A stretch of 64,000 nucleotides of DNA, taken from positions 1-64,000 of the forward strand of contig CALCUM010000002.1 of NCBI GenBank assembly GCA_937907245.1, written 5' to 3'. Below the pieces are notes generated by a model. That model saw only the letters and a list, made by a program, of their open reading frames with translations, had not been told where the DNA came from and ran no database searches. This DNA comes from an uncultured Rhodobiaceae bacterium. Lineage in GTDB: Bacteria > Pseudomonadota > Alphaproteobacteria > RS24. Position numbers and translations under genes: made by a program. Positions 34,895-41,241 of this stretch are shown in pieces; position 1 is the first letter of the stretch, and the number at the start of each line of letters is the position of its first letter.

Positions 34895-35770
34895 TTACCA
34901 AGTCAAATGGCGGATGGCGTAACGCGCATGGGTGTTTTCTTCGCGCAATAAATCAGCCACATCCTCGGCCGTGTCTACTTTGGCACCGGAAGCCCCGGCC
35001 AAGCCGCCGCTGATAAACAAAGCATCGACGCCGGCTTCTTGCGCGCCTGGGATATCGGTTTTCGGCCCATCGCCAATCGCCAGCAAGCGCGGCGCCTCGA
35101 GGCCGGTCATCTCGCTCAACATGGCTTTGGCGCGGTGGTAAACTGTGGGATAGGGTTTGCCCATCCAAATGACTTCACCGCCCATGGTTTCGTAAACTTC
35201 GGCGACGGCACCGGCGCAGAAAATAATCTTATCGCCCATTTGCACTTGGCGATCTGGGTTCGGGCAAATGAGCGGCAGTTTGCGGGCTAAAATATCGGTC
35301 AGAAAATCTGCATAATCTTGCGGGCTCTCTGTGCTGTCGTCATACATGCCAGAAAACAAAACGACATCGGCGTGGTCTATCTCGACCAGCTCAATGTCGA
35401 GACCTGCCACTAAATCGGCATCTTTTGCGGGGCCCACGTGGTGGCATTTTTTGCCTTGCGCGCCCAGCTCGGTTAATTTTGTGCGGGTGGCATCGCCAGA
35501 AGTTAAAATATTGTCGTAGGAAGTGCGTGCATTGCCAATTTCATCGAGCCGATTAAGCGCGGTTTGGCCGGGGCGCGGGGCGTTGGATAAAAGCAAGACT
35601 TTGCCGCCGCCATCTCGGAAGTTTTTCAACGCCGCATCGACGCCAGCAAAAGGCTCGCGCCCATTGTGCAGCACCCCCCAAATATCGCAAATCACCGCGT
35701 CATATTGCTCGGAAATATCGCTTAAACCGTTCAGCATTTGGGGCAATTGGGGGGCGTTGGCTTGGGTCAT
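34895..35770 (-). CDS. HAD-superfamily IIA hydrolase (TIGR01459-type)
   Basis: 291 aa, nucleophile Asp in YDAVICDIWGVLHNG, motif II LLSNAPRPG, cap of the NagD type, motif IV LAIGDGPKTDIPGA. These phosphatases act on small sugar phosphates or phosphoglycolate-like compounds; the substrate is unknown. Same strand as ribF with a 41-bp spacing, so a shared transcript is likely. Confidence 0.93.
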   Translation of the reverse strand: MTQANAPQLPQMLNGLSDISEQYDAVICDIWGVLHNGREPFAGVDAALKNFRDGGGKVLLLSNAPRPGQTALNRLDEIGNARTSYDNILTSGDATRTKLTELGAQGKKCHHVGPAKDADLVAGLDIELVEIDHADVVLFSGMYDDSTESPQDYADFLTDILARKLPLICPNPDRQVQMGDKIIFCAGAVAEVYETMGGEVIWMGKPYPTVYHRAKAMLSEMTGLEAPRLLAIGDGPKTDIPGAQEAGVDALFISGGLAGASGAKVDTAEDVADLLREENTHARYAIRHLTW

Positions 35771-35992: not shown

Positions 35993-36757
35993 ATGACACT
36001 TTTTAATCTCGAAGGAAAAACCGCCATTATCACGGGCGCCTCGCGCGGTATTGGCGAAGCCATCGCCCGTCAAATGGCAGACCATGGTGCCAATGTTGTT
36101 GTTTCGAGCCGCAAAGCGGCCGCGTGTGATGAAGTCACCAACTCCATCAACGAAAAGCACCCAGGCAAAGCGCTAACAGTAGAATGTAATATTGGCGCCA
36201 AAGACCAGCTGCAAAACTTGGCTGACACAGCTAAAGCGCATTTCGGCAAAGTCGATATTCTGGTTTGCAACGCGGCCGTGAACCCGTATTTCGGCCCAAG
36301 CCTTGATTGCCCTGACGATGCTTTCGATAAAATTATGGCCAATAATGTGAAATCCAATCACTGGCTCTCCAACATGGTATTGCCAGGCATGATTGAGCGC
36401 AACGATGGCGCGATTATCATTATCTCGTCGATTGGCGGCATTAAAGGGTCGGCCATGCTGGGAACTTATGGCATTTCCAAAGCGGCTGATTTTCAGCTCG
36501 CGCGCAATATTGCGGTCGAGCATGGTTCGAAAAACATTCGTGCCAATACGATTGCGCCAGGTCTCATCAAAACCTATTTCGCACAAGCCTTGTGGGATAA
36601 CCCAGATATTCTCGAGCAATCAACCGCCACGACGCCCATGCGTCGCATTGGTATGCCAGACGAAATTGCGGGTGCGGCTGTCTTCCTAGCCAGTGAGGCG
36701 GGTGCGTTTATGACCGGCCAGCAAATGGTTATCGATGGTGGGCAAACCATCGCCTAA
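35993..36757 (+). CDS. Short-chain dehydrogenase/reductase
   Basis: 254 aa classical SDR. The NAD(P)-binding TGASRGIGEAIA is at the N terminus, NAAVNPYFGP follows the NNAG-type position, and the active site is Ser in IISSIGGIKGS with YGISK. Ends with the common MTGQQMVIDGGQTIA. It resembles DHRS4-like reductases; the substrate is unknown. CAGGAG lies seven bases before the ATG. Divergent from the HAD gene and followed by a terminator. Confidence 0.94.
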   Translation: MTLFNLEGKTAIITGASRGIGEAIARQMADHGANVVVSSRKAAACDEVTNSINEKHPGKALTVECNIGAKDQLQNLADTAKAHFGKVDILVCNAAVNPYFGPSLDCPDDAFDKIMANNVKSNHWLSNMVLPGMIERNDGAIIIISSIGGIKGSAMLGTYGISKAADFQLARNIAVEHGSKNIRANTIAPGLIKTYFAQALWDNPDILEQSTATTPMRRIGMPDEIAGAAVFLASEAGAFMTGQQMVIDGGQTIA

Positions 36758-36782: not shown

Positions 36783-36822
36783 AAAAAGCCTGCCTGACCA
36801 ATAGGGGTTGGGCAGGTTTTTT
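36783..36822 (+). terminator. Intrinsic terminator after the SDR gene
   Basis: CCTGCC and GGCAGG arms with an inner ACC/GGT stem and AATAGG loop are followed by six T; an A run on the other side makes it look bidirectional. It closes the SDR transcript 26 bases after the stop. Confidence 0.85.
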
Positions 36823-36911
36823 AGTGCCGAACAAGTGAGATAATAATTTATCTCTATGCATATAAATAAACTCTATTTATTTTATTTTAAACCATTGAAA
36901 TAACTAAAAAA

Positions 36912-37085
36912 ACCTCTCTTGCCAGCATGGCTTTCTTGGTCGAAATAGAGAGCGCAACGTAAGAAGTGCGCTGATTTAAAAAGCCTGTGGGAAGGCGTGC
37001 GGTTAATCCCACCTACCGTATGTTTTTCTCCGCCCGGGCTGTAATTGGTGGCCGACAGGTTAAACTGTCGGCCCTTATTTTTTTC
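36912..37085 (+). ncRNA. Candidate structured small RNA upstream of groES
   Basis: Four potential stems follow one another: CTCTCT (36914) with AGAGAG (36947) enclosing GCCA/TGGC; AGCGCA/TGCGCT (36951-36972); GTGGGA/TCCCAC (36987-37012); and GGCCGACAG/CTGTCGGCC (37050-37073), a terminator. The first and second share two bases and would compete. No ORF with a plausible start fits. A TTGCCA lies in the stretch but no convincing -10 box. I do not recognise a known RNA family. It could be a small RNA or an attenuated leader. Confidence 0.4.
37050..37085 (+). terminator. Strong intrinsic terminator upstream of groES
   Basis: A perfect 9-bp stem GGCCGACAG/CTGTCGGCC with a six-base loop is followed by CTTATTTTTTT. 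It lies 200 bases before groES and upstream of the heat-shock promoter, with no gene ahead of it other than the SDR, whose own terminator precedes it. It must therefore end a transcript that starts between 36823 and 37050, if it is used. Confidence 0.85.
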
Positions 37086-37164
37086 TCTATTTTTTTCTGC
37101 ATTTTTTTCTGCCCTTTTTTCTGCATTTTTTTCTTTTTATTTTCGTCTTTATTTCCCTCCGAGC

Positions 37165-37193
37165 CTTGACACTGTGCGGCCTTCTCCCTATCT
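37165..37193 (+). promoter_or_regulatory. Sigma-32 type promoter of groESL
   Basis: CTTGAC, 15 bases, then CCCTATCT fits the RpoH pattern CTTGAA / CCCCATnT. It lies about 90 bases before the groES ATG. Between it and the gene is a hairpin GCAC-T-CCCC-TTTT-GGGG-C-GTGC at 37209-37230 in the presumed leader. No CIRCE element was found. A pyrimidine tract with repeated TTTTTTCTGC precedes it at 37078-37158. Confidence 0.6.
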
Positions 37194-37283
37194 GAAACAT
37201 GCGCAGAGGCACTCCCCTTTTGGGGCGTGCTCCTTTAATTTTTGGGGAAGCTCCTAAGGGAGCCCTTTCATAGGAGAAAGAAG

Positions 37284-37571
37284 ATGAAATTTCGTCCTTT
37301 ACATGACCGTGTATTGGTTCGCCGTATTGATGAAGATACGAAGACCAGCGGTGGTATTATCATTCCGGACTCGGCTCAAGAAAAACCATCGCAAGGTGTT
37401 GTGGTTGCAGCTGGTAGCGGAACCCGTGGCGATGACGGCAAACTAACGCCGCTCGACGTGAAAGCAAAAGACAATGTGTTGTTCGGCAAATGGTCGGGCA
37501 GCGAAGTCACCATTGATGGCGAAGAACTGCTCATCATGAAAGAAAGCGATATCCTGGGCATCATCGGCTAA
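37284..37571 (+). CDS. groES: Co-chaperonin GroES
   Basis: 95 aa, the normal length. Begins [20 protein letters not shown]; the mobile loop region [19 protein letters not shown] and the roof loop follow. It caps GroEL during folding cycles. TAGGAGAAAG precedes the ATG. groEL starts 29 bp downstream in the same operon. Confidence 0.98.
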
Positions 37572-37591
37572 CGCCACCCAGTTTTGGATAG

Positions 37592-39241
<1,650 letters not shown>

Positions 39242-39567: not shown

Positions 39568-41241
39568 ATGAGATCGATTGCTAAGAGCGCGTTATGCGCA
39601 AGTTTTCTGTTGTATACCCCAAGTTTAGGGGCTGCAGAAGAGGCCCCGGCCTTGCCCGAAATAATTAGGCAAGCGGGAACGCCTGCGCCTATTTCAAAGG
39701 CGGTGCCAGTGCTGGTACCGGCTCCTACTCCTACTCCTACTCCTACTCCTACTCCTACTCCTACTCCTACTCCTACTCTTGCCCCTAATGTGGCTCCTAA
39801 TGTGGCTCGCGCCCCTACTGCGGCTCGCGCGCCTGTTGTTAAAGCGCCAGTAATGCCGCCGCATATCGCCGACTTGCAACGCAAATTGCGCAATCACCCT
39901 AGTCAGCAGCGCGTCGAGCAACGTGTGTGCGAGGCGAAATGGGGCATTCTTCTCGGCAAGTCGAGTTATTATCCGCGCCTCGACGCGACGCTTTCAAGCG
40001 GCTCGAAATGGATAGACCAGACTTCGAGAGCCGATGAGTTTGGCGGTTCTAATTCCAGCGAATATGACGGTGAAGGGGTCAATGCAACTTTAAGCTTACG
40101 CCAACATATTTACGATTGGGGCCGCAATGCCTCGATTATATCTGGCCATCGTGAAGACCGCTTCGCGGCCCAAATTGAACGCAGTGCCACTTTGGAACAG
40201 CAGCTTAGTAGTGTCACCCGCTTGGCGCTCGATTATGTTTTGCAGGTCAGCCTCATTGAGCATTTTACGCAAAGCAAAGAAGTTATAGATCGCGATGTCG
40301 AGAGTATGCAGCAACGCTTTAAAGCAGGTGCCGCCCGGCTGGCTGAAATGCGCCAAGCCCGTTTGACCGGACTAGAAATAGAAAGTCGGGTAACCCAAGC
40401 CCAACGCCAAAGAGATTTGGTAGCCCGTGAAATGAAAACCGAATTTGGAATATTGCCCGAGCAGGCCAAAGCGATTGTCGCCAGTTTTCAAAGCCAGCGC
40501 CCAGATGTCCCCACTATGGTGGCGGGCGAGGCGAGCCCAAGGGCCAAGCTTCTTCGGCATAATATTAAGAAGGTGGAATCAGAAGATGCGCGCCTGCGGG
40601 CCGAACGCCTGCCTAGTCTGACCGGCGTGGTCTCTGCACGCGGGTGGGACGTCGCGCAGAAAAACCGCTGCAATGATCCGATAGCAGCTAGGGGCAGTGA
40701 AATTCACGAGGATATTCGCGGCTCCACGCGCTTGGTCGATGAGGATGGCAATGGATCGCGGGACCGCGATGCAAACGGTAACTTTCTTTATTATCGCGTC
40801 CAAAATTGTTCGACCTATGAGGTGACGGGCGCGATTGAGTTCTCTATGCCGCTGTATGACGGCGGAGCCAATGCGGCCCAACGGGGCGGGGTATCGGCGC
40901 GCCGTATGGGGCTAGAAGCTGAATTATCTGCCTATCAGCGCAGCCATAACGCCGAGAGCCGTCGGCTGCAAGATCAGCTGTTGGATGAGATGACCCAATT
41001 GGTCGAAAACCGCGAGCAGTTAGAGCAATTGGAAACGCAAATCGCCAGTGAACGCATTTTGTCGACGCGCACTCGTGGCAACCTTTTGGGGTTGTTGGGG
41101 CTGGAGCAGAGGCTGGCGGACGCGCAAGCGCAATATATTTCATTGCAAATTCGCTCTGAAAATACCCGCTTGGCAGCGCTGCAACTGGCCGGTCAATTGG
41201 CCAATGTTTTAGATATTAGTCTTGGAGTCAGTGGATGTTAG
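39568..41241 (+). CDS. TolC family outer membrane efflux protein (type I secretion)
   Basis: 557 aa. A signal peptide ends near LGAAEEAP, then a low-complexity linker of nine Pro-Thr pairs and Ala/Pro/Val repeats (about residues 52-95), then the TolC alpha-barrel/beta-barrel region with long helices (for example SLRQHIYDWGRNAS and the repeated coiled stretches near residues 210-290 and 450-530). It forms the outer membrane channel of the secretion complex encoded with the next two genes. The stop overlaps the ABC gene start by seven bases. The extended N-terminal linker is unusual for TolC. Confidence 0.9.
   Translation: MRSIAKSALCASFLLYTPSLGAAEEAPALPEIIRQAGTPAPISKAVPVLVPAPTPTPTPTPTPTPTPTPTLAPNVAPNVARAPTAARAPVVKAPVMPPHIADLQRKLRNHPSQQRVEQRVCEAKWGILLGKSSYYPRLDATLSSGSKWIDQTSRADEFGGSNSSEYDGEGVNATLSLRQHIYDWGRNASIISGHREDRFAAQIERSATLEQQLSSVTRLALDYVLQVSLIEHFTQSKEVIDRDVESMQQRFKAGAARLAEMRQARLTGLEIESRVTQAQRQRDLVAREMKTEFGILPEQAKAIVASFQSQRPDVPTMVAGEASPRAKLLRHNIKKVESEDARLRAERLPSLTGVVSARGWDVAQKNRCNDPIAARGSEIHEDIRGSTRLVDEDGNGSRDRDANGNFLYYRVQNCSTYEVTGAIEFSMPLYDGGANAAQRGGVSARRMGLEAELSAYQRSHNAESRRLQDQLLDEMTQLVENREQLEQLETQIASERILSTRTRGNLLGLLGLEQRLADAQAQYISLQIRSENTRLAALQLAGQLANVLDISLGVSGC
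39723..39776 (+). repeat. TCCTAC hexanucleotide repeat, nine units, coding Pro-Thr
   Basis: Nine perfect TCCTAC units lie in frame within the TolC-like gene and give (PT)9. Gain or loss of units keeps the frame and would change the length of the periplasmic linker only. The following GCCCCTAATGTGGCT is also partly duplicated. Confidence 0.95.

Follow-up and report, generated by a model that had tools for sequence, protein, structure and literature searches.

A lineage-restricted structured small RNA gene, predicted from comparative evidence, between an SDR oxidoreductase gene and groESL in a family of alphaproteobacteria

Introduction

Small RNAs that act in trans on messenger RNAs are described in alphaproteobacteria, and two examples from the Rhizobiales, SmelA075 and SmelA099, carry anti-Shine-Dalgarno loops (CCUCCUCCC) that are conserved on variable stems and are proposed to pair with ribosome-binding sites (PMC3927594). 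Another, StsR of Rhodobacter sphaeroides, is a stress-controlled, trans-acting small RNA whose expression depends on RpoHI/RpoHII (PMC8307010). A search of the literature for small RNAs adjoining groESL in alphaproteobacteria found nothing relevant.

Here we describe an element at that position in a stretch of 64,000 nucleotides (the window; contig CALCUM010000002.1, positions 1 to 64,000) from a 1.8-Mb alphaproteobacterial genome, whose close relatives in the public records are metagenome assemblies. An earlier, sequence-only reading of the window had pointed to a run of hairpins here and proposed an independent, stress-linked small RNA. Like SmelA075 and SmelA099, the element is a short RNA with hairpins, a conserved pyrimidine loop and varying stems, but those RNAs belong to a different bacterial order and have three or four hairpins with CCUCCUCCC loops, whereas the element has a single long hairpin with the loop UAAUCCCACCU. 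StsR is the kind of RNA that the sequence-only reading had proposed; the likeness is one of description, and a test for a sigma-32 promoter at the element was negative. 6S RNA (RF00013) resembles the element in being short and structured and in containing CCCACCUAC, by chance or otherwise, but it forms one long rod with a central bubble, in contrast to the separate hairpin, long hairpin and terminator seen here. The alphaproteobacterial small RNA mmgR (suhB, RF00519) has a faint, sub-threshold similarity to the terminator end of the element.

We regard the element as a previously uncatalogued small RNA family of a known kind. With it, a small-genome group of alphaproteobacteria, known here only from metagenome assemblies, gains a structured RNA family that is well supported, and the element provides a concrete loop, exact coordinates and a covariance model that can be used on more genomes and on metatranscriptomes. 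It also illustrates how synteny and compensating changes together can validate a small RNA that lies outside Rfam.

Results

Organization of the locus

The features of the locus, all on the forward strand of the window, are as follows, with the evidence for each in brackets.

35993..36757, + strand: SDR-family oxidoreductase gene, the upstream neighbour (NCBIfam SDR models)
about 36783-36823, + strand: the SDR gene's own terminator, a hairpin and T run (sequence)
36885..36922, + strand: probable promoter or control region, with TTTTAAACCATTG, 21 bases and TTGC (fixed box spacing in three genera)
36914..36952, + strand: stem 1 of the sequence-only reading, weak; it may be promoter or 5' leader DNA and not RNA structure (no excess covariation)
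36952..36971, + strand: hairpin P2, GCGCA/TGCGC (compensatory changes at two pairs in g1)
36970..36976, + strand: closing stem, 5' strand (pairs with 37043-37049)
36983..37039, + strand: long hairpin P3, carried by the closing stem (covariation in three genera)
37004..37014, + strand: apical loop of P3, UAAUCCCACCU, 11 nt, pyrimidine-rich, the proposed pairing seed (near-invariant in genera g1 and g4)
37043..37049, + strand: closing stem, 3' strand (pairs with 36970-36976)
37050..37085, + strand: intrinsic terminator, a 9-bp stem GGCCGACAG/CTGTCGGCC (37050-37073) and U tract (terminator scan; compensation)
37165..37193, + strand: sigma-32-type promoter of groESL, CTTGACA and CCCTATCT (kept before groES through most of the family)
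37284..37571, + strand: groES, the downstream neighbour (NCBIfam GroES models, E 1.4e-47)

We propose a stand-alone non-coding RNA gene of roughly 130-170 nt that begins at about 36915-36955 and ends at 37085. Its transcription would start at a promoter within the conserved block 36885-36950, and the transcript would fold into a short hairpin, a closing stem carrying a long hairpin, and an intrinsic terminator.

Conservation and compensatory change within and among genera

The DNA of the window's element matches 8 of the 11 other genomes of its genus (g1), with 79-91% identity over 59 to 196 bases, and g1 contigs of sufficient length have the SDR gene upstream and groES downstream of it. When ten distinct g1 copies are aligned by MAFFT alone, the fold composed of P2, the closing stem, P3 and the terminator has 95.9% of its cells paired, and nine of its pairs show changes on both sides, a number reached by 2 of 500 shuffles; the covariation score was reached by none of 500, and sliding the pairing partners by 1-3 columns reduced pairing to 34-52%. 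The sequence-only reading had suggested a covariance search across relatives with synteny to groES as a check, and its outcome is favourable: a model built from the g1 copies alone (R1) recovers homologs in genera g6 (L031, L032) and g4 (L051, L055) at the same SDR-groESL junction, with scores of 30-37 bits (E 1.6e-5 to 4e-4). A second model (R2), built from the g1 copies and these added g6 and g4 homologs, detects the copy in G024, which was not part of its training (E 2e-6). Over the three genera, 25 of 38 pairs show pair-keeping changes on both sides, which none of 500 shuffles reaches, in an alignment that was fitted to the model and whose pair counts lean towards the structure.

These changes are spread over the parts of the fold. 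In the three-genus alignment, both-side changes occur in five of the seven pairs of the closing stem and compensatory changes in 12 of the 18 pairs of P3, whose three helices have 98%, 90% and 92% of cells paired, as well as in six of the eight modelled pairs of the terminator; GCAC..GTGC hairpins equivalent to P2 are visible in g4 and g6. The terminator stem differs in sequence by species (the window has GGCCGACAG/CTGTCGGCC, other species have GGCCGGTGGCG/CGTCACCGGCC, and g4 has AAACTGGTGGGCC/GGCCCACCAGTTT), a pattern in which it is evidently rebuilt by compensation across species. A T-rich tail follows it in the inspected g1 and g4 copies, and a U tract is absent after the terminator in both g6 copies.

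Complementary segments are present for all four stems that the sequence-only reading had named, and two of them, its stem 2 and the terminator, are conserved; its stem 1 is at best weakly kept, and its stem 3 is contradicted. Stem 2 (GCGCA 36952-36956/TGCGC 36967-36971) is P2, and it is conserved with compensatory changes; the 9-bp stem at 37050 with its T tract is likewise conserved by compensation. In stem 1 (CTCTCT 36914-36919/AGAGAG 36947-36952) 87% of cells are paired within the genus and covariation is no better than in shuffles, and stem 3 (GTGGGA 36987-36992/TCCCAC 37007-37012), with 74% of cells paired and zero compensatory changes, is broken in many relatives; its bases belong to the longer hairpin at 36983-37039, with UCCCAC in the loop. 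The test by compensating changes, by which the sequence-only reading was prepared to let its stems be judged, thus supports P2, the closing stem, P3 and the terminator, gives no support to stem 1 and contradicts stem 3. The reading was right that no coding frame fits, since insertions and deletions of 1-2 bases among the homologs break any fixed frame, and only spurious open reading frames overlap the element.

Taken together, the comparisons make the element very probably a real, lineage-specific structured small RNA gene, and the covariation across three genera supports the earlier proposal that it is an independent one. The decisive evidence for a conserved RNA is comparative. The energy excess of the single sequence comes mostly from the terminator, and terminator-like patterns are not rare here. 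The segment 36905-37085 folds with -62.7 kcal/mol (z -3.5, with 1 of 200 shuffles as good), but with the terminator excluded (36912-37048) z is only -1.1; most of the excess is contributed by the terminator. Single sequences show a modest thermodynamic excess (z about -1 to -3). The terminator scan listed seven sites against 6.4 in shuffles, which is no excess, and it is conservation, and not the scan, that argues for the terminator being more than chance.

The promoter-like block and the 5' end

Upstream of the fold, the boxes CCATTG and TTGC stand exactly 21 bases apart with no indel in all three genera, and the RNA body has many indels; an unvarying distance of this sort would be expected of a promoter region. 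For G008, G009 and the second copy of G003 the spacing, again with no indel, was read from the alignment, and in one g4 copy (G024) the block is degenerate. The promoter scan listed no sigma-70 match at this block. A sigma-32 matrix trained on 18 groES promoters of the family gave best scores before the RNA that are no better than those of shuffles (p 0.10 to 0.68, all ten copies scored). We therefore rejected a sigma-32 promoter built from the TTGAA and CCCTATT motifs that are plausibly spaced in some copies, as their matrix scores are at shuffle level. The stress link of the sequence-only reading gained no support from this matrix, and a connection of the RNA to heat stress is suggested only by its position. 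The 5' end can accordingly be placed no more closely than between about 36915 and 36960.

Distribution of the element

The order-level group searched is one family of 28 genomes, so that the order and family sets are identical. The element is found in 14 of these (nine in g1, three in g4 and two in g6), a count that leaves four genomes undecided: G002, in which the contig ends 163 bases upstream of groES, and G006, G021 and G026, in which groES was not found. Wherever the contig is long enough, carriers share the order SDR gene, element, groESL. No copy was found in g2, g3 or g5, which have a different sequence upstream of groES, or in two genomes from carrier genera, G007 (g1) and G022 (g6), which yet retain the SDR gene, groESL and the groESL promoter. 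Because these two keep both neighbours without it, the chaperonin transcript does not require the element. A search with R2 of 385 genomes in all, about 380 of them outside the order and sampled from the remainder of the class, gave no match beyond the order under strict filters with which weak matches can be lost, and a plasmid search gave no match to the element. A contig search with the exact core motif returned metagenome-assembled genomes of the group and two isolated matches, in a Streptomyces and an acidobacterium, that are probably due to chance given the size of the pattern. From this distribution the element is, as far as the genomes searched indicate, lineage-restricted, and its loss need not entail that of groESL.

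A different, strongly conserved block, CCCGGCTTGATGGTGTTTCAGGGCGCACCATTGAATCGGCAGATAGGTTTGGCCCCTCAATGACTGAAAACC, lies upstream of groES in g3 (L056-L061), and a similar one, GGGCGCACCATCGCTTCGGCGGCAGGCTTTGCC, in g5 (L062). The two that were scanned (L060 and L062) have no Rfam match at gathering level; the block is possibly another unnamed RNA or a repeat.

Discussion

Proposed function

The reading that we favour, and consider reasonably probable, is that of a stand-alone small RNA acting in trans through its loop: UAAUCCCACCU, displayed at the tip of a variable stem, would pair with the G-rich ribosome-binding regions of target mRNAs. We propose this because an intergenic position, a terminator of its own, variable stems and a near-invariant pyrimidine loop are the usual shape of such RNAs, with a parallel in the Rhizobiales (PMC3927594). 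Among the g1 and g4 copies the loop shows almost no variation, in contrast to the stem that supports it; the apical loops of the g6 copies are UAAUCCACC and UAAUCCAUC. In the window's genome, complements of the loop with no mismatch or one mismatch show no enrichment: there are eight, the element itself among them, compared with 16 for the reversed control. A single complement falls at a start codon, AGGTGGGATT at the ribosome-binding site of a TPR-protein gene downstream of an ETF-QO-like gene. We rejected this gene as an antisense target, since AGGTGGGATT is not kept in relatives and its occurrence is attributable to chance.

Alternative explanations

Several other accounts of the locus can be weighed against a trans-acting small RNA, of which membership in a known family (a divergent 6S, mmgR/suhB, L20 leader or other RNA) is extremely unlikely. 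Neither the window's element nor its homologs match an Rfam family at cut-off, and the weak matches that could be cited in favour, to suhB/mmgR (16.8 bits against 41) and to the L20 leader (16.4 against 58.7), are far below gathering scores and recur in none of the homologs scanned. The genome has its own 6S (C2:149874-150031), RNase P, SRP RNA and tmRNA genes elsewhere, and the covariance models of these do not match at the element, which bears out the judgement of the sequence-only reading that it is none of the four. That the structure is instead the 3' untranslated region of the SDR gene, ending its messenger, with any small RNA being cut from that messenger, is suggested by the same-strand position of this gene ahead of the element in every carrier whose contig reaches far enough, and by some relatives in which a separate SDR terminator is not obvious by eye. 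The claim that nothing upstream needs the terminator at 37050 holds in the window, where the SDR gene has a separate terminating hairpin with a T run (about 36783-36823), and seemingly does not extend to all relatives. This terminator, the promoter-like block with its fixed 21-bp spacing before the RNA, and the retention of the SDR gene without the element in G007 and G022 all speak against such an origin, and we consider it very unlikely.

The main rival is a cis-acting leader of groESL, in which an upstream transcript would cross the structure and the terminator would serve as an attenuator with partial read-through, in the manner of riboswitches and attenuation systems. The element is always directly upstream of groESL in its carriers, leaders of this sort consist of a structured domain and then a terminator, and in several copies CCCACC of the loop can, by eye, pair with a GGUGG or GGUGGG that lies within the terminator or immediately ahead of it. 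However, the CTTGACA promoter of groESL (37165-37193) lies downstream of that terminator in carriers, so that the main transcript would be without the element, and G007 and G022 have groESL and no element; on these two grounds the leader is disfavoured, and we judge it unlikely. Moreover, we saw no conserved alternative pairing able to open the terminator, the complement of the loop differs in place among copies, and antitermination of groESL by pairing of loop and terminator was rejected since G018 and G024 have not retained the complement. A protein-binding RNA, whose invariant loop and hairpin would be the recognition site through which it sequesters or activates an RNA-binding protein, would account for a loop that is near-invariant with no conserved mRNA target found and for a long irregular hairpin that is among the best-kept parts; no known binding motif was recognised in it, nor any Rfam match, and this too seems improbable. 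Also improbable is a broader variant, a new, order-restricted RNA family in which the near-invariant UAAUCCCACCU loop works by means other than ordinary antisense pairing, such as the titration of an RNA-binding protein or the coupling of chaperonin supply to some other process, and which is kept beside groESL through co-regulation.

Other features of the groESL neighbourhood

Between the terminator of the RNA and the groES promoter (37074-37165) lie a T-rich tract and TTTTTTTCTGCATTTTTTTCTG-type repeats, the length of which varies among relatives. Between groES and its promoter, relatives of the same genus carry a perfect inverted repeat, CTTTGGCACTCTC/GAGAGTGCCAAAG, that is CIRCE-like and of the HrcA operator type (e.g. 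L008:1666-1696); it is absent from the window, where 37196-37235 holds a degenerate trace only, and the window's subgroup may have lost the control of groESL by HrcA. A HAD hydrolase gene of the TIGR01459 family (HAD-IIA) occupies 34895-35770, near groESL (37284-39241). This neighbourhood may be old in alphaproteobacteria, because a COG0647 gene also adjoins groES in Candidatus Pelagibacter ubique (PMC2704228). The open reading frame at 39568-41241 encodes Thr-Pro repeats (PTPTPTPTPT) near its N-terminus, which derive from a simple-sequence DNA repeat.
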